Source: a virus
DNA: 23,272 bases
Direction: 5' to 3' (one strand)
IMG/VR virus record: IMGVR_UViG_3300037427_000054
Coordinates: 1 to 23,272 of that record
Part shown: in pieces, positions 7,935 to 23,272 of the stretch
Layout: each line of letters begins with the position of its first letter
Numbering within the stretch: the first letter of the stretch is position 1
Translations under genes and position numbers: made by a program
Notes under the pieces: model-generated
What the model was told of the DNA's origin: nothing
What the model saw: only the letters and a program-made list of their open reading frames with translations
The model's database searches: none

Positions 7935-10886
7935 TTATCCAAATACCATTGCCATTGCTATTGCTTTACCAGTTGTAGCTGCACCATTTATATCAGAAGC
8001 TGTTGCTGTAACTAGTGTACCACCTAGTTTTAAACCATTACTACCATCATGGCTTGCAATATCAAAATCATAAGCACCATCAGCAAAAGTAGTGTCACCT
8101 GTAATTGTAATGGAACTTCCGTCTGCTGTCAAGCTATCTAATGCAATATTTCCAACATTTGTGATATTATTGTCATTAAATGATGTCGCACCTAAAGATC
8201 CTGAACCTGTTGCAGTTAAATTACTTGAGCCAATATCTATATTTCCAAATCCTGAACTAATACTTCCTGCATCTAATGCACCTGTAGTTACGATAGAAGA
8301 ACTACCTGCTACAACACCATAAATAGAACCAATAGCTGTACCATTAATAGTAATAGCATCTGCTTCTAGAGTACCATTTATATCTGCATCACCTTCAATA
8401 TCTAGTGTAGCAGCATCAAGTTCACCTGTAATGGTTAAGTTACCTGATGTATCTAATGTTTGTTTAGTAGCAAATGAACCAGAAGTATAACTATCCCAAG
8501 TCCATGTACCACCATCAGCTAAACTTAATCTCCAAGTATCAGCATTATCATCTGCTTGGTCTGCACTAAAAGTAAAACCTAATGCAGCTCCTTCTACATT
8601 TGCTTTAAACTCTAGCGTATCATTACCATTTTCATCATAACCAACAACTACATTTTGATCAGAACCAAAGTTAATGTATTTGTCATCAGCAATATAGACA
8701 TCACCAAACTCTGCAGAAGCACTACCTATATCTGCTCCACCAGAAGCATCAGGTAGTAAAGAAGTTTCTACAGTAACGGTGTTTGTTCTAATACCTGAAG
8801 TACCATTATCAATAGCTCCAAATCCAGAAGTAATAGAACCACTGTCTAATGCACCTACAGTTGTAGCAGCTGTGGTTATTAAGTTAGGCATTGCTGTAAT
8901 CTCATCATCAAGATAAGCAGCAAGAGTAGTGACAGCAATTTGCTTCATTGTGCCACCATCATTAATAGGTATTCTATCTGCATCTTCTACAGTAATAGCA
9001 GATGCACTTGTATCTCCATCAGCTACAGCATTAAGTTCTGAACCTGTTGCTGTAAGACCAGTAACATTATTAGCCTGTCCTGCTACTGTAGTGACATAGG
9101 CTTTAATAGATTGTTGTGTAGCAAGTTTAGTTGCACTGTCACTACTAAAGTCATCTTCATCTGCAATGTCTGTAATAGTAACAGAACCATCTGTAAGACT
9201 ACCAAAGCTTATTGTACCTGAAGTTGTAATAGCACTTGAGCCATTATTAATAGCACCAAAACCCGTTGCAATACTACCACTATTTAATGCTCCTGTAGTT
9301 ACTAGGTTTGGCATAGCAGTTATTTCATCATCAAAGTATGCTGCTAGATCTGTAACAGCTACCTGCTTCATTGTACCTGCATCATTAAAAACAACTCTGT
9401 CAGCATCAACTACAGTTGTAGAAGTAGCACTAGTATCACCATCTAGTATACTTATTTCAGCAGGTGTGGCTGTTACTGCTGTATCACTATCTGCAGCTAA
9501 TACTACAAGAGTTCCTGACTGATTAGGTAACTTGATTGTTCTATCAGCATCAGGATCAGTAATCGTTAAAGTTGTTTCATTAGCATCTGCAGTTGCACCT
9601 TCAAACACAATAGCATTTTGAGCATTCATAGTAACAGTATCTACAACTGTTTGTGTTCCTGTAACAGTAAGATTACCTGTTACTGTAAGGTTATCACCTA
9701 TTGTTACCTCTGAAGTACCATGACCTATTGTAATAGCTGTACCTGATACACCTGTACCTATAGATATGGACTCACTACTATTACCTGTATCAATAATTAA
9801 ATAAGCATCAGAGCCTTGCTTTACAGTAAAAGAAGTAGCAGAGTTATCTGTAATAGCTACATTAATATCTGTACCATCTGCACTAATAGAGTCAAGAGCT
9901 ATATCACCTACATTAATAATATTAGCATCACCAAAAGATGTAGTAGATAAAGTAGTTGTTCCTGTTACAGTTAAGTTATCTGCAACGGTTACTTCTGAAG
10001 TTGTATGACCTATTGTTACAGCTATACCACTTGTCTCTGTAGCAAGTTTTAATGCACCTGTAGCATTAGTAATATAAGAGTCACTACCATCATGGTATAA
10101 CTGCATATCACTACCTGCACCAAACTTAAACTTATCACTGTCAGGTACAATTAAATCACCATTACTATCTACTGTAACAGCTTTAGAAGCTTGTGATGTA
10201 CCTAATGTAGTTATATCAACATAGTTTAATTCTGCAGTAGAAGACGTTACACCATCTAATATATTTAACTCTGCAGTTGTTGACGTTACTCCATCCATTA
10301 TGTTAAGCTCTGCAGTTGTAGCAGTAACACCATCCATAATATTTAACTCTGTTGCTGTGGCTGTAACTCCATCAAGTATATTTAATTCAGCTACAGTTGA
10401 AGTAAGAGCAACATCAGCTATGGTTAAAGAACCAGATACATCTAAATTACCATTTACGTCTATTGTTGTAGCATTTATTTCTATTTCTGTATCACTAACA
10501 AGATCTAATATACCATCAGCAGATTGATGAATATAAGATGCTGTATCTCCAAAGTTAAGTCTCTCAGTACCATTTATTAAAATGTCATCATCAAATCTAA
10601 AGTAATCTTCGTCTTCCATCCACCTAAAGATACCATCACCTGCATTTCCTTTACAAGTTATAACAACATCATCTCCATCACTAGGACTATCAACACCAAA
10701 TTGTATAGTCATACTTTGAAGACTACTAATAGGACCACCTTCTGCAGCTGTTCCATCATGTGAGTGTCCTGTTGAAGCTGCAAAAGCATTTACAACAGCA
10801 TTAAGTTCAGCATTTAATGGTGCTGATTTAACAACCTCATCAGCTTGAATATCTGACGTATTTGTTCTTGTGTAACCTGTACCCAT
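7935..10886 (-). CDS. Long repeat-rich tail fibre
   Basis: The protein has 983 residues. The N-terminal 55 residues (PLNAELNAVVNAF, then GHSHDGT with a possible His41-x-His43 metal site) look like the tail-attachment region of marine phage fibres. Five copies of a 13-residue repeat (E-L-N-[IY]-x-D-G-V-T) lie at residues 167-224. Larger duplicated modules follow, with DEITAMPNL[VI]TT and SGFGAI twice and a shorter version near residue 870. The composition is Thr/Ser/Asp/Gly-rich and low in Cys, typical of extended trimeric beta-helical fibres. The end reads ATTGKAIAMAMVFG, an ending I associate with this fibre type. It probably binds the host surface. The start overlaps the upstream stop as TAATG, and AGGAGAT lies slightly far upstream. 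Confidence 0.85.
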   Translation of the reverse strand: MGTGYTRTNTSDIQADEVVKSAPLNAELNAVVNAFAASTGHSHDGTAAEGGPISSLQSMTIQFGVDSPSDGDDVVITCKGNAGDGIFRWMEDEDYFRFDDDILINGTERLNFGDTASYIHQSADGILDLVSDTEIEINATTIDVNGNLDVSGSLTIADVALTSTVAELNILDGVTATATELNIMDGVTATTAELNIMDGVTSTTAELNILDGVTSSTAELNYVDITTLGTSQASKAVTVDSNGDLIVPDSDKFKFGAGSDMQLYHDGSDSYITNATGALKLATETSGIAVTIGHTTSEVTVADNLTVTGTTTLSTTSFGDANIINVGDIALDSISADGTDINVAITDNSATSFTVKQGSDAYLIIDTGNSSESISIGTGVSGTAITIGHGTSEVTIGDNLTVTGNLTVTGTQTVVDTVTMNAQNAIVFEGATADANETTLTITDPDADRTIKLPNQSGTLVVLAADSDTAVTATPAEISILDGDTSATSTTVVDADRVVFNDAGTMKQVAVTDLAAYFDDEITAMPNLVTTGALNSGSIATGFGAINNGSSAITTSGTISFGSLTDGSVTITDIADEDDFSSDSATKLATQQSIKAYVTTVAGQANNVTGLTATGSELNAVADGDTSASAITVEDADRIPINDGGTMKQIAVTTLAAYLDDEITAMPNLITTAATTVGALDSGSITSGFGAIDNGTSGIRTNTVTVETSLLPDASGGADIGSASAEFGDVYIADDKYINFGSDQNVVVGYDENGNDTLEFKANVEGAALGFTFSADQADDNADTWRLSLADGGTWTWDSYTSGSFATKQTLDTSGNLTITGELDAATLDIEGDADINGTLEADAITINGTAIGSIYGVVAGSSSIVTTGALDAGSISSGFGNIDIGSSNLTATGSGSLGATSFNDNNITNVGNIALDSLTADGSSITITGDTTFADGAYDFDIASHDGSNGLKLGGTLVTATASDINGAATTGKAIAMAMVFG
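10215..10388 (-). repeat. 13-residue (39-base) tandem repeats in tail fibre
   Basis: The motif E-L-N begins at residues 167, 180, 193, 206 and 219 of the fibre, exactly 13 residues apart. Most copies continue I-[LM]-D-G-V-T-[AS]; the last is E-L-N-Y-V-D. The DNA copies differ at many third positions, so selection seems to hold the protein pattern. This repeat type is common in marine phage fibres and probably forms one rung or knob of an extended trimer per unit. Confidence 0.85.
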
Positions 10887-12421
10887 TACCTTATATCTCC
10901 TAATCCATAAGTAATTGTAAATCCTTGTATACTGTGACTAGCATTTGTATCCTCTGCAACAAAACGAAAAGAAATAGATTTTCCTGATCCTGTAAACTGT
11001 GCTGTTTCTACTGGTGATGGATTACCATCAAATACTTGAGTTGTATCATATATTGCTGAACCATAAACAGCTGCTGTACCAGTAGCACTAAATGTTACGT
11101 TAGAAGGATTAAGAACAGTTGTATCTTCAAAGTCATACACTATACCTAGTGATACGGATATTGCACCCTCTGCACGTAAGTATGTAGCCATATCATAAAA
11201 TATTTTTCTTTGTCTTGGATCTTGAAAATATAAATAAGGTGTTTGATAAATACTTAATACAGAAGATCCTGCAAAAGATGTTCCTGATTCTTGTGCATAA
11301 ACTTTACCTGTAGAGTCACCATGTATAATTGTTTCTGTTGTTCCTATGTATCCACTATCTGCACAAGTAACAGAAAAACCAAACAATGTTGAAAACTCAA
11401 AAGCAAAACCTCCTTGAGGACTTTCTCTAAGTGCTCCTAGTATTCCTACAGAGCTAGTTCCTGAGAACATATATCTAAACTGTGACTTTGACCTGATTAA
11501 TACAGAAGATAAACCTGAAAGTGTTTCTGTGTTAATAGTATTCTGTACTGTCTTATGTATCTTTTTAGATACAGTTTCTAAATTAACGTCACCAATCTTT
11601 GCAGTACCACCAATAGGTCTAATACCATCAGGTGCTAAAAATAGTAAGTCACCACCTATTTCTATTACACTGTCTGTAGCTAGACAACCTAAGTTATTTG
11701 TAACATTCTCTAATGCAAAATCTGTTTCATTATTACCAACAAGTCTTTTAATATTGTTAGTACCAAATATATAAAGAATATTACGAAAAACTTTTATAGC
11801 TACAATATCAAAACCTACGTTAAAACTTCCTGCACCATTTGCAGGAGTAAAGTCTGTTTCAGCTAAAGGAGCACTAAAGAATAACTCATCTTTTTTTGCA
11901 GGATCTCCTGCTAAGAATAAATGATTAGCAAAAACTTCAGATATTACTGGATCAGTAGGAGCGTTAGAATCTGTTATCTGAACATAGCTACTACCATCAT
12001 AAGTAGCTGCAGGATTAATACCATCTGTAAGTACAACTTTAGGTGAACCAAAGTTTAATCTGGTAAATCTTACTTTAGTTACACTGGTCATTGAGGGTGA
12101 ACCACCACAAGTAATAGCAGTCCATGCAGAGCCTGTCCAGTAGTGTAAGTAGTTACTTCCAGAGGAAGGTTTTCTTGCAGCGAGTATTCCATTATGAATA
12201 CCATCAGCTATACAAACACCTAATACAGATCCTGTACCTGTTATTGTACCATAACTATGTGCAAACCCACTAATTCTTCTATAGCCACCCTGAAGGTCAG
12301 GCTCATAGTTTAAAAGCTTTGTAGCACTTCCCGGAGTTTCTTCTCCCTGAGAAAGAACATCTCCTGTAGTATTTAAACCACCCCTGCAGACTGCTTTAAA
12401 TGTTTGTACTTCATCTGCCAT
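10886..12421 (-). CDS. Beta-propeller-like tail hub/nozzle protein
   Basis: The 511-residue protein begins with an extended segment (GGLNTTGD, then LLNYEPDLQGGYRRISGF), a typical opening of podovirus tail nozzle or P22 gp10-like packaged-DNA-stabilising proteins. Repeated four-strand blade patterns follow, such as KVRFTRLNFGSPKVVLTDG, ANHLFLAGDPAKKDELFFS, AIKVFRNILYIFGTNNIKRL and GGDLLFLAPDGIRPIGG, and suggest a propeller. The end (about 390-511) looks like a separate beta domain. It would close the tail tube below the adaptor and carry fibres. Its start shares a base with the upstream stop (TAATG) and no Shine-Dalgarno is visible, so translation probably depends on the preceding gene. The fold is inferred from sequence pattern and gene order. 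Confidence 0.7.
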   Translation of the reverse strand: MADEVQTFKAVCRGGLNTTGDVLSQGEETPGSATKLLNYEPDLQGGYRRISGFAHSYGTITGTGSVLGVCIADGIHNGILAARKPSSGSNYLHYWTGSAWTAITCGGSPSMTSVTKVRFTRLNFGSPKVVLTDGINPAATYDGSSYVQITDSNAPTDPVISEVFANHLFLAGDPAKKDELFFSAPLAETDFTPANGAGSFNVGFDIVAIKVFRNILYIFGTNNIKRLVGNNETDFALENVTNNLGCLATDSVIEIGGDLLFLAPDGIRPIGGTAKIGDVNLETVSKKIHKTVQNTINTETLSGLSSVLIRSKSQFRYMFSGTSSVGILGALRESPQGGFAFEFSTLFGFSVTCADSGYIGTTETIIHGDSTGKVYAQESGTSFAGSSVLSIYQTPYLYFQDPRQRKIFYDMATYLRAEGAISVSLGIVYDFEDTTVLNPSNVTFSATGTAAVYGSAIYDTTQVFDGNPSPVETAQFTGSGKSISFRFVAEDTNASHSIQGFTITYGLGDIR

Positions 12422-13787: not shown

Positions 13788-14849
13788 CTATATTGATGAA
13801 CAATAAAACGCACGAGTCAAGGCCTCTGGACGTAATATTTTTCTGCCATACAAATGCATACCACGAACAATGTCAGCAAAGCTGTCAGGGTCACGATATG
13901 TTTCTGTCTTGTTAATCTGTTCAGCAGAGGCAACAGCAGAGCTATGACCTGCACAGATAACTCCATAGTGAGAGCTTCCTGTTGCAGTAGCACCAGTTGG
14001 TCCATTGCCGACAGATGGTAGATTGTTTGACATATACACTTTAAATCCGTGTATATTATTAAAGACTAGTCCGTTCTGCAATCCAGAACCTCCAAAGTCA
14101 GCATCCATCAATCGTGAATCCTCATCTTTGAGTAGTTCTGCAAATACAGGGTCAATCACTAACCATCTTCCGTTAGTGTCAACAAACTGCTGATCAAGTT
14201 TCCTTGACATTCTTGCAATTACAGACAAGGGTGAAGCTTTAGCTGTAGTAGTATTTAAGCTATCTCCACCTGCTCTTGGAACAACTACAATAGAGTTATT
14301 TGCTGTACCTCCATTAAAGTCATTTGCGTCTACAAGCATAGAGGTAAGCAATTCATTTGATCCTGCTGTAGATACAGCTTTAGTACCAGATACTGTGGTA
14401 TTAGCTGTTCCTGCAACAGAGCTTAATGAAGACTGCTTAAATCCTGTCATGTAGCCAAGAACTTCTTGGTCAAATTGGTCTGCTAATCTGTATGCAGCAC
14501 GATCAGTCGCAAGACTTTGAAAGTTTACATGACTATGAGCTTCTTCAATGTCATCAACTTTAAATGCAAAGTAATTTGCTTTGTCAACAACAAGGGAAAA
14601 GTCTTCGTCATCTAGGTCTTGTGGTGTAATCTGACCACCTCTAGCATACTCTTTAACAGTAATTTCAGGTTCTTTGATAATCTTAACGGTATCTCCCATT
14701 CCTGAAATCTCTCCAAAATAGTCAGAGTTTGTAATTGCTTCTACAATAGAACCCTTACGAAACGCTAACTGAACTTGTTTGGAATAGATAACTGGCGAGA
14801 AATTACCGTTAGGCAGATTACCATAACCTGCTGCGGTTTTAAAAGCCAT
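13788..14849 (-). CDS. Major capsid protein (HK97-fold type)
   Basis: The 353-residue protein has the pattern of podovirus coat proteins: an N-arm with YSKQVQLAFRKGSIVEAIT, then GDTVKIIKEPEITVKEY (E-loop/beta-hinge-like), a spine-helix region with ADQFDQEVLGYMTGF, and a late segment KVYMSNNLP followed by YGVICAGHSSAVASAEQ. It follows a scaffold-like gene and precedes a probable decoration gene, the expected order. The start at 14847-14849 is fixed by a perfect AGGAGG at 14857-14862, seven bases upstream, the strongest ribosome-binding site in the window. There is no sign of a fused protease or long cleaved N-terminal domain, which suits assembly on a separate scaffold. A dedicated promoter precedes it. 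Confidence 0.9.
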   Translation of the reverse strand: MAFKTAAGYGNLPNGNFSPVIYSKQVQLAFRKGSIVEAITNSDYFGEISGMGDTVKIIKEPEITVKEYARGGQITPQDLDDEDFSLVVDKANYFAFKVDDIEEAHSHVNFQSLATDRAAYRLADQFDQEVLGYMTGFKQSSLSSVAGTANTTVSGTKAVSTAGSNELLTSMLVDANDFNGGTANNSIVVVPRAGGDSLNTTTAKASPLSVIARMSRKLDQQFVDTNGRWLVIDPVFAELLKDEDSRLMDADFGGSGLQNGLVFNNIHGFKVYMSNNLPSVGNGPTGATATGSSHYGVICAGHSSAVASAEQINKTETYRDPDSFADIVRGMHLYGRKILRPEALTRAFYCSSI

Positions 14850-15097: not shown

Positions 15098-15973
15098 TTA
15101 TCTAGCATTTCCTGAAATATCGTATATAATTTTACCAGAACGAATAGCTTCATTGATTTCATCAGCTTTTCTAGCATACTCTGCAGCACTCATTCTTTCT
15201 ATATCCGATTCTTTTATCTTATTTGATAGTTCTTCTGTATCAACTCTTGTTTTAGATCCTCTGTCTACCAACGAGGCAGCAGCTTTTGTTTTATCTTTTT
15301 TATCAGATCTTGTAAGTCCATTATCAACTTTATACAAATCAAGAACACGTACAACTGAAGGAGCATCATCCGTATTTTCGTACAAAGCGTTCTGCACCCA
15401 CTTAGGCTGTTCTTCAACCCAGTTATGAAAATTGTCTGAATCACGAAGTTTATCAAAATCTGGATGTGCTTCCCTAATTTCATTCTCGGCACGACTCCTT
15501 GTTGCTTCTTCTTTAGCCTTACTGAGTTCTTCTAATTGTATATTAGCCTTATCAAACATTTGTTTTGCTCGTTTGTCGGCTATTGTTTCTACTATCCCTG
15601 CTACATCAGGGTATTTATCAACCCACTCAGCAAGTTCTTCTTCGGACTTAGGTGGAACAAGTTTCTCAGTTTGTCCTAGTTGATTTTCTAGCTCCTTAAT
15701 CTTGGCATTGTATTCTTTTTCTTTAGCAGCTAGGTGTCTTCTTACATCACCATAACGAGTTTTAAAGGATTTTTCTTCATCACTAAGTTCAGGTTCGTTC
15801 TTCTTAGCTTCTTCCTTTTCTGCTTCTTCTTGAGCTTCTTTAACTTTTCCTTGTTCTTTATCAATTAACTCTTGAAGTTCTTTTTCTTCTTTTGCAATCC
15901 TGTCTTTCTTAGTGTATCTGCTGTCTACAAATCCTACAGTTTTTACTTTTTTTACTTCTTCTAATTCTGGCAT
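15098..15973 (-). CDS. Scaffolding protein
   Basis: This 291-residue protein is very rich in Glu, Lys, Asp and Ala, with long coiled-coil helices (about residues 23-135: KDRIAKEEKELQELIDKEQ, then AKEKEYNAKIKELENQLGQ). A middle segment contains EAHPDFDKLRDSDNFHNWVEEQPKWVQNALYE at about 165-196, a helix/Trp pattern seen in scaffold-like proteins of marine podoviruses. The C-terminus (about 255-291) is helical and basic-acidic mixed, fitting a coat-binding end. It lies just before the major capsid gene, the classic scaffold position. AAAGGAA gives the ribosome-binding site. There are no protease motifs, so it is probably a pure scaffold that is lost from the mature head. Confidence 0.85.
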   Translation of the reverse strand: MPELEEVKKVKTVGFVDSRYTKKDRIAKEEKELQELIDKEQGKVKEAQEEAEKEEAKKNEPELSDEEKSFKTRYGDVRRHLAAKEKEYNAKIKELENQLGQTEKLVPPKSEEELAEWVDKYPDVAGIVETIADKRAKQMFDKANIQLEELSKAKEEATRSRAENEIREAHPDFDKLRDSDNFHNWVEEQPKWVQNALYENTDDAPSVVRVLDLYKVDNGLTRSDKKDKTKAAASLVDRGSKTRVDTEELSNKIKESDIERMSAAEYARKADEINEAIRSGKIIYDISGNAR

Positions 15974-16014: not shown

Positions 16015-19000
16015 CTACTTTTTGTTTTTACGTTTTGGTCTTTGTATTAGTCCTCCTTTTGCTCTTTTTTCTCCAGTTCTTTCAAATGGATCATCTGCTT
16101 CTTCTTTTTGTTTTACTTTTTTATCAATAGCACTTTGTCCTCTATATGATTTATCTTTATCTCTTTTAACCCTATCTATAACTTCTTTTTGTTGTATTGA
16201 TGCTCGTTCTTTTTCCTCCCTAGAAGGTTTTCTTGAAGGAGATCCTTTTATAAAAATTTTAGGTTCTTTTTCTACCTTGCCATCAATAGTAGTAGTAGTT
16301 TTACCACTACCTAAGTTAGCATAAGTTTCATTAGTAAATGCTATAGTCTTAGCATATGCACCTTCTCCACCAAGTTTAAGAAGTTTATTTGCACCTGTTA
16401 CAATAACTTTTCCATAAGTCGGTAAATCATCATAAGCAAGTTTAACTTTCTTTTCCATTTCAGTTGTATCTATACCTTTAGCTTTAGCAAGTTCTATAGC
16501 AGCATAAGCATTAGCAACACCTGCTGCTCTAAAAAATCCATGCTTTCCTACTCCTTTAGGAGTAACTAAAGAATTTATTTCTTTATTCCAGTTATCTTCA
16601 GTCCAATCAGTAAAATCAAACTGTTCAGGATCTGCTCCCCAACCCGGAGGTGGATCTTTTCTATCTTTATCATCTCTACTACTAGAAACTTGTTGTTGAG
16701 TCTGTGTTGGTTTATTTAAAGACCAAGGTGGTTGAGTAAACTTTAAGTCAGTAGCAGGGCTTACAACACCATTAATAAAAGTAACTACCTTTGCTTCACC
16801 AGTTTGTCCATGATAATAAGTCATAGTAGTTTTATTTTGTTGGGATTGAGGTTGACCTTGACCTGTTTGATAAATAGGACTGCTTGGAGTAAATCCGGGA
16901 ACAGCATAATCTGCAGGATTAAAAGTTCTAGATTTTTCTATTTGTTGCATATCTGAACTAACACCACCATTGTCAAATCCAACAACACCACCTTGAGCTT
17001 TCTTTTCTTTCTTGTCTTTATCCCTTTGACCAAAAGCTATCATAGTCATATCTACTTCTACTGGCTCACCACCTATCCTACCTGTAGCTTCCATTTCTGC
17101 AAGACCACGCTTTGCTTCTGCACGTATATCTTCAAAAAACTTTACACCAAAATACTGAACAACATCTGCAGGAACAACATATTCACCATCACTTAATTGT
17201 GCAGGTATATCATCACGAACTTCTTTAGCTAATGATCCCGGAGGAATATCATTACCACTGACAGGATCTCTATCTAGTCCATCATCTTTCATTCCACCTT
17301 CTTCAAATAGGCTCATCTGTTGTTCCATGCTCATTCCACCTTTATTAAATTGACTAGGTACATTTTCTTGAATTTTATTTCTTTTAAAAATTCTATCTCG
17401 TGCTTCTCTAAGATTTTTAATAGCATCAGAATTATTAAGATCTGATTGTAATTTATTTAATCGTTGTATTGTTGGTGCATACTGTTTAGCAAATAATCTA
17501 TTTTGAAATTGATAACTTTCTACAGCATTTTTAAATTCTTGAGATTGTGGTCCAAACTGTCTTGCAACTTCACCAATTTTTCTTTGATAAGAACCTAACT
17601 CTTTTTGTTGTATATTACCAAACTCTCTAGCTTCTTTTTGTATAAGTTTAAATTCTGGAGTATCTCTAACAAGACGATCTAAGTCCATAATTTCTTTTTG
17701 TTCTTCTTGAGTAGGTCTGTATGGTTGAGGTAATCTTTTTGGAGTTTGTTGTGTAGCAATTGCTTGCTGTAATCTTTCTTGGAATCTTTCTCGGTCTTTT
17801 TTTATTAATGCATCCACACGAGGATTATTACTAAAATTTACATTAGCTTTATTTCTCAACATAGCTTCATACATTTTAGGATGCTTTTCTTTTATCATTC
17901 TCAGATGATTTTTTGCAAACTCTTCTTTTTGAGCATCAGTACGTTCTGGTACTTTAGATCCATCTGCAGCATAAACTGAATTAACTGCTTGAATAGGTGT
18001 AGCTTGTTTTGGAGCAGTTTGCTCTGCTTGTTTAATATTCTCTGGAACAAATGTACTAGCTACTTGCTCTGCTTGTTCTGGTGTTTCAACAGGTTGTGCT
18101 ACAGGTTGTGGAGGAGGTGGAGTTGGAGGTTGAGGTGCAGGTTGTTGCACAGGTTGTTGTACAAGTTGTTGTGTTGTAGTTGCAGATGCAGGAGGTGGAG
18201 TTGGAGTTGGAGCAAGTGCAGGAGTTGATACTGCAGGAGGAGTAATAGAGGTTGCAGGAGTAGCAACAGGAGCAGACTCTTTTGGAGAAACAATATTATC
18301 TGAAGAAGTATCTCCTCCTTCGTAAACAATCTTTCCGTCAACAACAGTGCCTTGATGAGCTTTAATAGGTTTTCTAAGTAATCCACCCATTTGTTGTTCC
18401 ATTGTTGTTCCACCTTTGTTAAATTTTGGTCTACCCATTGGTTCTTTAGTTTTTTCTACTACACCGGGATTTAAAGAAAAACCTTTTGGTCTTTGTGCAG
18501 GTGGTGTAGCAGATTCTACAAAACCTTTATACTGAGGATTGTCCTGTTTTAATTGATTAATCATTTTTGGAGTTACTTTATCAATTCTACGAACACCTAT
18601 TATTTCATTAACAGAAAAAGGTTTTACATTAATTTCTGCAAGTGATTTACTACTGCTTTGATTACCACCTAAACCTAATAATCTCTTATCTGAATATTTA
18701 GAGGAAACATCAAAAGCTCCTTCAATATCATCACCAACAAAAATAGTTAAATGAGTTATAGCACCTACTTCTTCTGGACCTCCTTTTAAAAAAGTATTAG
18801 GATCACCTATAATAAGTATATCACCACTTTTTATTTTTGATAAATCAATACTACCATCTTTTTTTAAATCAGCAATTTTTGTTCCATAGTCAATATATTT
18901 TCTTGCTCTAATTCTATCAAAACTATTAGAAGTTTCTAAAGGTTTTGCATTTACTTTTGTTAAAATATCGTGTATAAAAGCACTACACCAAAACCAAGAA

Positions 19001-20340
19001 CTTTCAGGATTATCAATATCTAACTCTTCTACAGTTTTTGCACCAGTTGCCTGTGTATAAAAATTATGTATAGCTTTTACTTGATTAGGATCATTTTCAT
19101 CTAAATTACCAACAAATCTATTTCTGCCAAGATCATATTCTCCAGTTTTTTCATTAAATATAAAGTTATCAAAATCATTAGGTGCATTTATTAAAAAACC
19201 TGATTCTATTACTGCTTGTATCATAGGAGCTTTTATATTAAAATACTCCATACTTTTTTGAACATCAGTAATATTTTTAGGATCTTGAAAAAGTTTATTT
19301 GTACCAGAAACTATTTCACTAACTTTAGTTTCTGGATTATACTCAACTGTTGTTTTTGAAAGTTCTTTTAGTCTATTAAACACAGAGTTCTTAACTCTAG
19401 CTTTAGCCATTTCTACTGTTTCACTTAAACCAGAAAACCTTTTTATTCTTTTTACTTCTTCCTGACGTTCTTTTAAAGTTTGACCAGTAGGTTCTCCTAA
19501 AAAACCTAGTGGTTGATTTTTATCTGTCTGTTGAAACTTTAAGTTAGTATAAACTTCAGGATCTACTCTTTTATATTTATCAAATTGCCCTTCTTGAAAA
19601 GGAGCAGAAGTTAGTGGTTTAGCTATTTTATTATTATCTCCACCACTGCTCATGTCTACAGATTCTTGAAAAGTTTTTGTTTCTGCAGGAGCTTCTTTTG
19701 CTTCACCCTTGTAACCAAGACCTTTAAAGTTACCTTTTTCTTTTGCTGCAGATACACCAGTGTCAGGAGTAAACTTACCTGCTACACCATAACCACCCTG
19801 ATTAAATGCTTGTTGTGTTTGTTCGTTTTGTGTAATATAATTTTTTATACTATCTAACACTTTTTTTTGTTCTAAAGTATACAAATTATCTTTTGTTTTT
19901 TTATCAAACTGGTTAAATACATATCCTCTAAGTAATTCAGGATAACCTGTTCTTTCCGACCAATTATTAAAATCCCTCTTTTCTCCTAAATTATTTTTAT
20001 GGTAATTATATCTATTTAACATATCTTCTTTAGAAATTAATTTTTTAAATTCTTCATATTTTTTAGAGAGATATTTATCTTTATTAATAATATGATGAGA
20101 TATAATATCACCTGCTATATCTTCAGGTCTTACATCTTTAAATATCTGCAAACCATATTCGCCAATAGGTAAATTTTTAGGCCTAGGATTTTCTAAAGAA
20201 CCCACTTCCTCTGGAGGAAAATGTTCTAAATAATAAGGACTATTTTTGTCTAAAGTTTCTATAATACTATAAGGATAATTTTTTAAAATAGGATACATTT
20301 TTTTTGCTGTATCATATTTATTTTTTATTTGTTTAGACAT
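16015..20340 (-). CDS. Giant modular virion protein with NlpC/P60-type peptidase domain
   Basis: The protein has 1441 residues. In order: a helical N-terminal module (about 30-170, with RTGYPELLRGYVFNQF); FNQGG at 179-183; a Lys-rich helical part; a probable NlpC/P60 (TIGR02594-like) cell-wall peptidase domain at about 425-600, with WFWCSAF (Cys452), KSGDILII, ITHLTIFVGD (His530) and LGLGGNQS (Asn560); FNKGG at 640 followed by MEQQM; a Pro/Ala/Thr/Gln-rich linker at about 690-795; a charged helical region (about 800-995); FNKGG at 998, again followed by MEQQM; a folded block DIPAQLSDGEYVVPADVV (from about 1043); FDNGG at 1122; and a very basic C-terminus. It probably acts in the virion, opening peptidoglycan during entry, or less likely as a lysis enzyme. 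The 8-base overlap with the upstream gene and weak AGAGA suggest coupled translation. Peptidase assignment is from motifs only. Confidence 0.8.
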   Translation of the reverse strand: MSKQIKNKYDTAKKMYPILKNYPYSIIETLDKNSPYYLEHFPPEEVGSLENPRPKNLPIGEYGLQIFKDVRPEDIAGDIISHHIINKDKYLSKKYEEFKKLISKEDMLNRYNYHKNNLGEKRDFNNWSERTGYPELLRGYVFNQFDKKTKDNLYTLEQKKVLDSIKNYITQNEQTQQAFNQGGYGVAGKFTPDTGVSAAKEKGNFKGLGYKGEAKEAPAETKTFQESVDMSSGGDNNKIAKPLTSAPFQEGQFDKYKRVDPEVYTNLKFQQTDKNQPLGFLGEPTGQTLKERQEEVKRIKRFSGLSETVEMAKARVKNSVFNRLKELSKTTVEYNPETKVSEIVSGTNKLFQDPKNITDVQKSMEYFNIKAPMIQAVIESGFLINAPNDFDNFIFNEKTGEYDLGRNRFVGNLDENDPNQVKAIHNFYTQATGAKTVEELDIDNPESSWFWCSAFIHDILTKVNAKPLETSNSFDRIRARKYIDYGTKIADLKKDGSIDLSKIKSGDILIIGDPNTFLKGGPEEVGAITHLTIFVGDDIEGAFDVSSKYSDKRLLGLGGNQSSSKSLAEINVKPFSVNEIIGVRRIDKVTPKMINQLKQDNPQYKGFVESATPPAQRPKGFSLNPGVVEKTKEPMGRPKFNKGGTTMEQQMGGLLRKPIKAHQGTVVDGKIVYEGGDTSSDNIVSPKESAPVATPATSITPPAVSTPALAPTPTPPPASATTTQQLVQQPVQQPAPQPPTPPPPQPVAQPVETPEQAEQVASTFVPENIKQAEQTAPKQATPIQAVNSVYAADGSKVPERTDAQKEEFAKNHLRMIKEKHPKMYEAMLRNKANVNFSNNPRVDALIKKDRERFQERLQQAIATQQTPKRLPQPYRPTQEEQKEIMDLDRLVRDTPEFKLIQKEAREFGNIQQKELGSYQRKIGEVARQFGPQSQEFKNAVESYQFQNRLFAKQYAPTIQRLNKLQSDLNNSDAIKNLREARDRIFKRNKIQENVPSQFNKGGMSMEQQMSLFEEGGMKDDGLDRDPVSGNDIPPGSLAKEVRDDIPAQLSDGEYVVPADVVQYFGVKFFEDIRAEAKRGLAEMEATGRIGGEPVEVDMTMIAFGQRDKDKKEKKAQGGVVGFDNGGVSSDMQQIEKSRTFNPADYAVPGFTPSSPIYQTGQGQPQSQQNKTTMTYYHGQTGEAKVVTFINGVVSPATDLKFTQPPWSLNKPTQTQQQVSSSRDDKDRKDPPPGWGADPEQFDFTDWTEDNWNKEINSLVTPKGVGKHGFFRAAGVANAYAAIELAKAKGIDTTEMEKKVKLAYDDLPTYGKVIVTGANKLLKLGGEGAYAKTIAFTNETYANLGSGKTTTTIDGKVEKEPKIFIKGSPSRKPSREEKERASIQQKEVIDRVKRDKDKSYRGQSAIDKKVKQKEEADDPFERTGEKRAKGGLIQRPKRKNKK
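17960..18281 (-). repeat. Proline/glutamine-rich low-complexity linker
   Basis: Within the 1441-residue protein, about residues 687-794 are dominated by Pro, Ala, Thr and Gln, with runs such as PTPTPPPASATTTQQ and QQPVQQPAPQPP. The DNA shows matching short imperfect repeats (GGTTGTTG and GGAGGTGGAG types on the plus strand). It is probably a disordered flexible tether between the peptidase half and the helical half. Such DNA is prone to slippage, so its length may vary among relatives. Confidence 0.8.
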
Positions 20341-20539
20341 TATCTCTCTTTGAATTTAACTCATCTCTAAGATATTTCATTCTACGTAAACAAGCAATAG
20401 ATCCCTGTAGTTTATAGACCATAGAAACTTCTGTTGCTTGCTCTAGTGATTTATGTTGTTTAGCTATAGCATCATCTATATATTCTACAAACGCATCCCA
20501 TAGCTCTTTGTCAGTAGTAAGTTTTCTTAATGTTATCAT
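20333..20539 (-). CDS. Small conserved-looking helical protein
   Basis: This 68-residue protein, MITLRKLTTDKELWDAFVEY and onward, is predicted almost wholly helical, with one central stretch VSMVYKLQGSIACLRRMKYL resembling a helical hairpin. Its start shares a base with the portal stop (TAATG), and its stop overlaps the next start by eight bases, so translation of three genes is linked. No Shine-Dalgarno is visible. The tight coupling to portal suggests a head-assembly or packaging accessory protein. I do not recognise a family, and the function is unknown. Confidence 0.7.
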   Translation of the reverse strand: MITLRKLTTDKELWDAFVEYIDDAIAKQHKSLEQATEVSMVYKLQGSIACLRRMKYLRDELNSKRDNV

Positions 20540-22647
20540 TATTGTATAGGTCCTTGATTACCAGTAAAGCCTTCTTCTTCTGGAGTTGGCACTGATCCTG
20601 TACCTATTGTACCACCACCAGATCCTTGTGTGTCTTCTACCTGTCCACCTGCAGGAGCAGGAGGTTGTGGCTGTCCTTGTTGTGGTGGAGGTGCAGGTGG
20701 TGGATTAGCTTCTTGAAACTTCTTGAGTATCTCTGCCTGTACAGCAGCTTGACTCATGGAGTTACCTACTTTATCAGGATCAAGATCCATACTCTTTGCA
20801 ATCTCTCTAACAATGTAATCCATTCTGGCAAAAGGAGCGAGAGCAGGATTAGATACTGTCTGCATAAACTGCATCAATCTCTGGCTTCTAACTTCATTCA
20901 TCATTAAACTTTCTGTACCTTGAGCTTTAACTTCAAGATCACCTTTAATCTCTGGATCAAAGTCAAACTGCATATTAAAGCTAAAGAATGCTTTACCCAA
21001 AGGTCCTAGTAGATAGTCATCTACATTCTTAATGACATTACGAATAGAACCATTAGCTGCATTCATCAGCATAGAAATACCTGATGCAGTTCTACCTACA
21101 CCCTGTATGCCTGTTTGTCCATGAGCAAACGAAGGAAAACCAGTAGATTCATCTGCAAGAACTCTGGCTTTGTCAAACATCTGCATATTCTCATTAGATA
21201 CATTAGGAAATTTTGTTCCAAAGATCCCCTGTCCGGGAGCACCACCCTGTCTTCTAAAGACTTTTCCGGGATATACTGTAAGATCTTGTCCGGGAACTAG
21301 GTTAGTTTCATCAACTTCTATCAACAAGTTTCCTGATAGTGCAGCATTGTCTACTGACATACGCATGAAACCATTCATTAAAGTCTGTGTGTCATCCATG
21401 TTTTCTGCAATACCTACACCAAATATGTTGTAAGGATTCATCTCATAAGGTGTAGCATAGTAGGGTAGATAGGCAGGAGTAAATGGGTTCATTACTAAAC
21501 GTAACACACAGCCATTGCACAGCCATACATTAACACTTAACTGCTCTACATCTTTTAGTTCTTTAGGTATATCTACATCATATTGCTCTATAATTTCTCT
21601 ATCTACAAAACCCCAGAACTCTAATACTTCAAATCGTTGAGAATAATCATCTTCATTACTCTCATCCATTTCGTGTTCCCACCATTCTTTATTATAGTTT
21701 TCACCCATATCTAATGCTTTATCAATAGTATTCTCTCTAAAGAAAGGTCTACGTTTTAAAGCACGTAGTTGTGAACGAGACATCTTGTGTCTCTCTATAA
21801 CATATTCTGCCTCATCCATATTGTTTGCATCTGGATCAGGATAGAAGTTCCAGATAGAAACATTAGAAGTTTGTGGTACAGTTTTAAATACTGGTTCATA
21901 TTCACCTTCTTCATTCCAGTTAGGATATTCCTTATCAACTGCAAAAGGTCCTTTCATAACACCAGTACCAAATAAAGCAGCTTCAAAAGCAGCAGCTCTT
22001 AATTGTTTCTTAGCATTAGACTCTTCTAATTGATCATGTATTTTCTTTTCCATCTTCTTAGCTGCAATCATTGCAGGATGAAACTGTACAGCCGAAGGAC
22101 TTTTAGCAGGTTTAAAATCTAGATCTTCCTCAACTGCACTCAGATCCTCTGTAAGAGGTCCTACACGCTCATTAAATTCTGGAAGAGTTTCACCGGGTTT
22201 AAGTGTTCTTTCCCCCTCAGTAGCCTCCTCAGAGCCTCCTAGAGCCTCTTTGAGTTGAGGGTTAGTTTCCAAACTAACTGTATCTTCTACTCCCTCTGGT
22301 AAAACAGTGGGGTTAATACCTAATGGAAATCTATTTGCACCAAAGAGAACTTCTACAAGTTGACCATAAGCAGCAAGAACTTTTGTTTTAGTAACTTTAA
22401 CAAAAACTCTGGATTTTTCTGTGGAAGTGAATTGAACTTCTGGACTGTAAAGACCTCTGTAATTTCTGTAAGCTTGTATCCACCTTTCTTCATCAGATCT
22501 TCTTGCTGTTTCTGCTTTGTTATATTTTTCTTTAACAAACTTTTCTATCTGACCTGCAGGTTCATCTCTAAAATCATCTACATTAATATCATCTAGGGCT
22601 GCAGACTCTTCAGCATCCATTGCCATCTGTTCTATATCTTCTGCCAT
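20539..22647 (-). CDS. Portal protein
   Basis: The 702-residue protein lies directly downstream of the terminase and has the size and layout of P22-like podovirus portals. An acidic N-terminus is followed by a helical clip/wing region (EERWIQAYRNYRGLY, then FVKVTKTKVLAAYGQLVEVLF). A central part holds NVSIWNFYPDPDANNMDEAEYVIERH, a hallmark pattern of phage portals. Then come QTLMNGFMRMSVDNAALSGN and, further on, a stem/crown-like helical region. The last 70 residues are Pro/Gln/Gly-rich (PPPAPPPQQGQPQPP) and probably disordered. Twelve copies would form the DNA-entry vertex, docking terminase and later the adaptor. AAGGAT lies nine bases from the upstream stop and supports the ATG start. No frameshift or missing part is apparent. 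Confidence 0.9.
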   Translation of the reverse strand: MAEDIEQMAMDAEESAALDDINVDDFRDEPAGQIEKFVKEKYNKAETARRSDEERWIQAYRNYRGLYSPEVQFTSTEKSRVFVKVTKTKVLAAYGQLVEVLFGANRFPLGINPTVLPEGVEDTVSLETNPQLKEALGGSEEATEGERTLKPGETLPEFNERVGPLTEDLSAVEEDLDFKPAKSPSAVQFHPAMIAAKKMEKKIHDQLEESNAKKQLRAAAFEAALFGTGVMKGPFAVDKEYPNWNEEGEYEPVFKTVPQTSNVSIWNFYPDPDANNMDEAEYVIERHKMSRSQLRALKRRPFFRENTIDKALDMGENYNKEWWEHEMDESNEDDYSQRFEVLEFWGFVDREIIEQYDVDIPKELKDVEQLSVNVWLCNGCVLRLVMNPFTPAYLPYYATPYEMNPYNIFGVGIAENMDDTQTLMNGFMRMSVDNAALSGNLLIEVDETNLVPGQDLTVYPGKVFRRQGGAPGQGIFGTKFPNVSNENMQMFDKARVLADESTGFPSFAHGQTGIQGVGRTASGISMLMNAANGSIRNVIKNVDDYLLGPLGKAFFSFNMQFDFDPEIKGDLEVKAQGTESLMMNEVRSQRLMQFMQTVSNPALAPFARMDYIVREIAKSMDLDPDKVGNSMSQAAVQAEILKKFQEANPPPAPPPQQGQPQPPAPAGGQVEDTQGSGGGTIGTGSVPTPEEEGFTGNQGPIQ

Positions 22648-22656
22648 ATTTTATCC

Positions 22657-23272
22657 TTAATATCCAAATGTTGCGTCTGCTGCTTGAAATCCAGTTTTTT
22701 GTGTATTTGGATTGTAATCAAACAAACTACTTCTTGGTCTTGTCATAACACCATAACGTAAAGCATCATAAAGGTGGTCTTCTGATTTAGTATCTACATC
22801 CTCTGAATTATTTTTATCTAGAGGAACAGAAGGAAGCTGAGAGATAGTATGAATACACGTATTAAAAAAGACCAGTCTAGGTTGTTCAGTAAACTCATCA
22901 ACTTGTAATCTCCTGTGTATTTCATTTTTACCTGCTATTCTACTTCCTCTACTTCTGTCTGATGGTCGCCATCTGCAACCTTTTATAATCATCTGCTCTG
23001 CTAGTGAAGGTCCTGTGTCACCTCTTTTGTGCCAGAGAGAACTATCTAGTACACCATAACGTATTGTTCCATCTTCTTGTTCTGCTTCTAGTACTAGATC
23101 TGCTAAATCAGTTGCTAATACTTTTGAAACATACAATTCTCTATAAACAACTAGTTGTTCATCAGGAGCGACTGCAAACCATAGAACCCCTGTATGACTT
23201 CCGTAACCATAGTCACAGGCTCTGAACTTAGTCCAACCAGTAGGTATATCGTAAGGCTCAACAACATGAGTG
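22657..23272 (-). CDS. terL: Terminase large subunit, C-terminal nuclease part (cut by right edge)
   Basis: The frame is open to the right edge, so the N-terminal ATPase part is outside; 205 residues are visible. The RNase H-like nuclease shows its acidic motifs: FRACDYGYGSHTG with Asp at 23212-23214, GVLDSSLW with Asp at 23044-23046, and EDHLYDALRYG with Asp at 22765-22767. These residues would bind two metals and cut concatemeric DNA at packaging. The next gene is the portal, nine bases away, the classic order. An in-frame TTG at 23134-23136 could be mistaken for a start, but strong homology-type sequence continues upstream, so it is internal. The end (after RPRSSLFDYNPN) is short and may contact the portal. 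Confidence 0.9.
   Translation of the reverse strand, partial: THVVEPYDIPTGWTKFRACDYGYGSHTGVLWFAVAPDEQLVVYRELYVSKVLATDLADLVLEAEQEDGTIRYGVLDSSLWHKRGDTGPSLAEQMIIKGCRWRPSDRSRGSRIAGKNEIHRRLQVDEFTEQPRLVFFNTCIHTISQLPSVPLDKNNSEDVDTKSEDHLYDALRYGVMTRPRSSLFDYNPNTQKTGFQAADATFGY

Follow-up and report, generated by a model that had tools for sequence, protein, structure and literature searches.

A predicted cell-wall peptidase in the exchangeable cassette of a portal-adjacent protein from an HMO-2011-type marine phage

The locus and its slot gene

We have analyzed a stretch of 23,272 nucleotides, the IMG/VR virus record IMGVR_UViG_3300037427_000054 (hereafter the window), with the focus on a gene for a protein of 1441 amino acids (aa) that lies between the genes of the portal and of a presumed scaffold protein (positions 16015–20340, minus strand). 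This open reading frame, which we call the slot gene, codes for a cargo-carrying protein with a predicted peptidase domain. Several cargoes, this peptidase among them, can be exchanged on a conserved carrier that bears a tape-measure-like motif, which an initial annotation of the sequence had missed. The main genes are all on the minus strand, in the series terminase end, portal, 68-aa gene, slot gene, 291-aa gene, major capsid, 174-aa gene, adaptor and tail genes, and the record, a fragment of 23 kb, breaks off within the terminase gene. The closest annotated genomes were Roseobacter phages of the CRP series and Puniceispirillum phage HMO-2011; the window is a fragment of an HMO-2011-type marine phage, a type that is among the dominant marine phage groups (PMC9038755). 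The order portal, small gene, slot gene, unknown gene and capsid was common to CRP-9, CRP-2, CRP-603, HMO-2011 and the SAR11 phage HTVC115P, and was also kept in further relatives, some of them with small insertions. In all annotated relatives examined the slot protein was named only “hypothetical,” and in the open-licence literature on HMO-2011-type phages searched with lysin and peptidase terms (PMC9038755, PMC8528129, PMC6918029) no enzyme was described for the slot gene.

The slot protein begins with an ordered alpha/beta module (residues 1–178, window 19807–20340, minus strand like all the features below), found in other phages mostly as a stand-alone protein of ca. 200 aa. The module linker FNQGG follows (residues 179–183, 19792–19806), a junction in common with the relative L013. 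The NlpC/P60-CHAP-like peptidase domain, delimited by profile and structure comparison, covers residues 425–605 (18526–19068), and another linker, FNKGGTTMEQQM (residues 640–651, 18388–18423), coincides with the point (ca. residue 647) from which the homologues of L002 and L007 match. Then come a Pro/Gln-rich low-complexity tract and a helical one (residues 652–996, 17353–18387), and the conserved core of the slot protein (residues 998–1094, 17059–17349), which contains the tape-measure-like motif VRDDIPAQLSDGEYVVPADVVQYFGVKFFEDIRA (residues 1041–1074, 17119–17220). The exchangeable cargo cassette (17350–20354) has sharp homology breakpoints at both ends. The flanks of the peptidase had initially been described as unrelated helical and disordered regions, which holds for the Pro/Gln-rich residues 606–800, but not for residues 1–178, which form a well-ordered, conserved module.

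The predicted peptidase domain

The peptidase was indeed located where the initial annotation had placed it, at residues 425–600 of the 1441 (window 18541–19068, minus strand), and the motifs named there were all present: WCSAF with Cys452 (18985–18987), the predicted nucleophile; AITHLTIFVGD with His530 (18751–18753), the predicted base; LGGNQS with Asn560 (18661–18663), the predicted third residue; and then IIGVRR. The likeness to the TIGR02594 pattern is real, but it does not amount to membership (E 0.091, 13.1 bits, far under the cut-off of 70.55 bits). Across 69 aligned relatives the Cys and the His were each conserved in 69 and the Asn in 67, counts that are partly built in for Cys and Asn, as WC and GGNQ were in the recruiting scan patterns, whereas the His was absent from these patterns and the relatives were not picked for it. 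Among the homologues recruited via the conserved core alone, and not via the peptidase, all three residues were kept, with the exception of one Asn-to-Glu replacement.

A search of the PDB with the single sequence of the window protein gave no match, and a scan of viral contigs with the domain of this one protein found one relative, whereas an alignment-based scan found more. Translated search placed the domain in the corresponding slot of CRP-9 (E 2e-17) and in a CRP-118 protein that stands alone (E 1e-3); endolysins of Proteus phages gave weak matches. By Pfam, the CRP-118 and Proteus proteins are CHAP. Searches with the core or with the whole protein, the scan with the peptidase of the single protein and the annotated relatives together gave 103 slot proteins, 12 of which bear the domain. 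A profile built from 11 of these 12, leaving out stand-alone lysins, matched the solved NlpC/P60 cell-wall hydrolase 7cfl with E 1.3e-6 (1.9e-8 when CRP-9 and two CHAP relatives were included), and in the alignment from the enlarged profile the Cys and His of the query coincided with the Cys and His motifs of 7cfl.

The AlphaFold2 model of the domain had a mean predicted local distance difference test (pLDDT) score of 78, with values of 84–97 through most of its core. In this model Cys452 begins a helix (H64–75), His530 begins a strand (E143–150) and Asn560 ends the next strand (E166–173). When the model was re-aligned to solved structures, Z reached 10.0 for CwlO, 9.4–9.5 for MepS and 8.4 for the CHAP endolysin LysIME-EF1, the upper rows being all NlpC/P60 or CHAP; the best matches of a Foldseek search against a viral library included C51, CHAP and “tail lysozyme” proteins. 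Profile search and structure prediction had been suggested initially as checks, and both, together with the structural comparison, confirmed a papain-like fold with the proposed arrangement of Cys, His and Asn. As modelled, the domain is a papain-like NlpC/P60-CHAP peptidase.

An exchangeable cassette on a conserved core

Comparison of the window with its near relatives revealed a mosaic slot gene. The tract 20354–23272 was found at 82–94% DNA identity and stretches below 17350 at ca. 74–96%, while between 17350 and 20354 many near relatives had unrelated DNA. The clearest case was L008, in which protein identity was 100% for the terminase, 95% for the portal and 99% for the core, with no detectable similarity to residues 1–996 of the slot protein of the window. 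Of the two breakpoints, the downstream one coincides with the FNKGGMSMEQQM linker (residue 998), and the upstream one lies 14 bases ahead of the start codon. Linkers resembling FNKGGMSMEQQM were also found at residues 179 and 640; in L006 the N-terminal module of the window is joined straight to the core at such a linker, and in L013 a different N-terminus is joined to a window-type peptidase at FNQGG. From sequence comparison, it looks as if modules of the slot protein were shuffled at short linkers, presumably by recombination.

For the slot census we used 59 complete slot genes for which the core was the sole recruiting query. The peptidase was present in 9 of them and 20 had fewer than 60 residues before the core, that is, no cargo; pre-core cassettes were up to 1630 aa long. 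Over all recruitment routes there were 33 distinct peptidase-plus-core fusions, in which the position of the peptidase was very variable, up to residue 1038. This patchiness bears on the idea of a capsid maturation protease, with scaffold or portal as the substrate of the domain. Portal, protease, scaffold and capsid is the classical order for prohead proteases, and the slot gene stands precisely there. However, relatives swap the whole cassette or have none and yet keep the genes of portal, presumed scaffold and capsid, and such loss or replacement is unexpected in phages with the same head genes; besides, the fold matches are wall hydrolases and L013 has added a peptidoglycan-binding domain (see below). 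We therefore consider a maturation protease very improbable.

Other cargoes were diverse. Pfam detected, over 75 pre-core regions, LPD23 (10), NLPC_P60 (3), Hydrolase_2 (2), the putative metallopeptidase DUF6782 (2), methyltransferase (2), LysM (1) and SprT-like (1) domains, and PHROGs several endolysin families and one transglycosylase. In one alternative cargo N-terminus (L003 6744–9275, L004, L008 and L010) there is, near slot residues 139–160 and thus within a presumed virion protein, a Tat-signal-like stretch, RRQFIAGTAALGAASGL, with E 2e-4, slightly below the Pfam cut-off. The presence of LPD23 polyvalent domains, DUF6782 and methyltransferases in the slots of relatives would agree with an injected effector, a papain-like domain that acts inside the host on a protein or a defence component and not on the wall, a mode of action that has been proposed for polyvalent proteins. 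Against this, the nearest folds and profiles of the domain are peptidoglycan peptidases, a LysM fusion exists and Hydrolase_2 takes the place of the peptidase in relatives, so that an effector of this kind seems unlikely here.

The N-terminal module has a confident predicted fold (pLDDT 90) with weak resemblance to zincin-like folds (Z ≤5.7). An active metallopeptidase is unlikely, as a conserved D..SH occupies the place of HExxH in degenerate form. At the loci with stand-alone copies of this module (L196–L275), inspected by eye, the neighbours were lysis, terminase or portal genes.

As for the core, the weak matches of an 85-residue segment outside the group were nearly all tape measure proteins (46 of the 47 specifically named in a spread match list, although many of these 46 records are related and do not represent 46 independent events), from phages of Arthrobacter, Gordonia, Mycobacterium, Streptomyces, Vibrio, Acinetobacter and others. 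The core of HMO-2011 itself, used as an independent query, recovered tape measure proteins again, and an adjacent control segment of 85 residues recovered none, its hits being two records of a single hypothetical/membrane protein. The tape measure family PHROG 3547 matched the window with E 4.8e-4 and further slot proteins with E values as low as 5e-8. By hhalign, core and tape measure proteins aligned with a probability of 98.4 over 34 columns, a value biased by the choice of the tape measure set by similarity. The motif in common is GG...DxIPAxLSxGEYV...A, and gp72 of the SAR11 phage HTVC115P, encoded between portal and capsid, has it too. The Rhizobium phage RHph_TM3_14A codes for a hypothetical protein of 362 aa with the core motif (L277 2417–3505; E 7e-4 to the HMO-2011 core). 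Judging from such matches, the phage group with this carrier may be wider than the relatives of HMO-2011.

The protein with this motif (17119–17220) belongs to the head module, and portal and adaptor of the phage are of the short-tail type. We did not assign the slot protein as a tape measure protein. SU10-type portal and adaptor are usual in phages with short tails, and among the genes of the window, which is an incomplete fragment, no tail tube gene was recognised. The portal protein (20539–22647) is of the SU10 type (PF23899, E 8.5e-26), as is the adaptor (PF24175, E 3e-22). Between portal and slot gene, the 68-aa protein (20333–20539), conserved in relatives, overlaps the slot start by 8 bases. 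The 291-aa presumed scaffold (15098–15973), named so by position only, matches phrog_13678, of unknown function (E 8e-51), and the major capsid protein (13788–14849) phrog_267 (E 7.5e-65); all of these genes are on the minus strand. The capsid was 66–69% identical to those of relatives (L001–L022) where portal and terminase were 88–100% identical, which may mark a second boundary of exchange within the head module. Farther on, HMO-2011 gp44 (L012 14010–15518) is labelled “amidase,” a doubtful label; the window counterpart by gene order (10886–12421) had no Pfam match.

A probable role at entry and its parallels

What the peptidase and the Hydrolase_2 cargo have in common is, most likely, wall hydrolysis, as suggested by two kinds of relatives. 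LysM is a peptidoglycan-binding domain, and in L013, 66% identical over the peptidase domain, it directly follows the peptidase (E 3.5e-14); the slot proteins of CRP-2 (E 1.3e-11) and CRP-3 carry Hydrolase_2 (PF07486), an unrelated cell-wall hydrolase. A wall enzyme could also act at the end of the infection, as a phage endolysin fused to a large late protein. The nearest stand-alone relatives include annotated Proteus phage endolysins and the CRP-118 CHAP protein, and the fragment contains no other lysin. The latter, already remarked on in the initial annotation, is true but uninformative, because the window stops in the terminase and in HMO-2011 the lysozyme gene is located just beyond, in a genome whose slot has no peptidase. 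Moreover, in addition to the slot peptidase there are two lysozyme-type genes elsewhere in the L094 genome (PF00959 and GH108), and CRP-3 has a separate PF00959 gene beside its slot Hydrolase_2. The domain is encoded in a head-module gene and not in a lysis cassette, in 33 distinct peptidase-plus-core fusions, which agrees with the early claim that this is not an ordinary endolysin, and we find a role in lysis quite unlikely.

Probably, the 1441-aa protein serves as a cargo or ejection protein in the virion of a short-tailed phage of the HMO-2011 type, and its NlpC/P60-CHAP-type peptidase opens the peptidoglycan at entry. Some results weigh against this. Scans of the window protein alone with Pfam, NCBIfam and PHROGs gave no peptidase match above the curated cut-off, and Foldseek found no PDB match at E <0.001, a weak result resolved by the structural re-alignment. 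The tape-measure resemblance is confined to 34 residues, and, as some slots have no cargo, the group can do without a wall enzyme in the slot. Patchy cargo fits a role at entry that is helpful and not essential.

The entry protein that we favour would work as follows. The conserved core with its tape-measure motif would be the carrier part, by which the protein would be kept at, or within, the portal end of the particle, and the front ca. 1000 residues an exchangeable cargo cassette, holding here a cysteine peptidase that would cut peptide bonds of the peptidoglycan. Packaged near the portal, the protein would exit with the DNA upon infection and the peptidase would loosen the thin wall locally, making a hole that would let the genome cross the periplasm. 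The models for such an entry are T7 gp16 and the peptidase of the Rhodobacter capsulatus gene transfer agent, thought to act likewise. A much broader proposal, which we advance only tentatively, is that marine short-tailed phages infecting SAR116, Roseobacter and SAR11 hosts might possess a common portal-adjacent carrier, descended from tape measure proteins or convergent with them, which would dock exchangeable injected cargo, with repeated FNxGG..MEQQM linkers as the sites of module shuffling and the peptidase as one of many payloads for entry or host takeover. The common motif suggests that the ejection proteins of short-tailed phages are linked to the tape measure proteins of phages with long tails. 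With a wall peptidase on a cargo carrier there is an explanation, open to test, of how these phages might cross the envelope of alphaproteobacteria that are abundant and hard to grow, and the cassette is a place to mine for injected effector enzymes.

The closest parallels are other HMO-2011-type slot proteins such as CRP-9 gp54 (QSL99469.1), with the same slot, core and peptidase (E 2e-17, as above), although gp54 is annotated as a hypothetical protein only and has its peptidase at residue 123 instead of 450. Polyvalent proteins (PMC5512222) are likewise multidomain, predicted to be packaged in the virion, and have enzyme domains that are interchangeable, wall hydrolases (lysozyme, PF07486) among them. 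The slot is linked to these proteins, for which packaging and injection are predicted (PMC5512222), by the LPD23 and PF07486 of slot relatives. Interchange was seen here and LPD23 was found in 10 of 75 relatives, whereas the window protein has no LPD domain and a single sure enzyme domain, and NlpC does not occur in the text of that paper. Motif 3 of the TM4 tape measure protein is also an accessory peptidoglycan hydrolase domain of a virion protein present only in some phages, and aids infection of stationary cells without being essential (PMC1796659), but TM4 is a long-tailed mycobacteriophage and the enzyme motif is another one. The peptidases of the R. capsulatus gene transfer agent (g14) and of roseophage R4C are thought to be tail-borne and used at entry into alphaproteobacterial targets (PMC7296036, PMC10276861); they are separate proteins of long-tailed particles, whereas here the peptidase is a domain of a 1441-aa protein. 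Finally, T7 gp16 resembles the slot protein in being a large protein of a podovirus whose N-terminal part, phage-specific and lacking in P22-like phages, includes a domain that cuts peptidoglycan (PMC8954989). The gp16 enzyme is a lytic transglycosylase, and that of the slot a cysteine peptidase, predicted from sequence, at varying positions; unlike gp16, the slot protein has a tape-measure-like core motif, a gene between portal and presumed scaffold and a presumed virion location.

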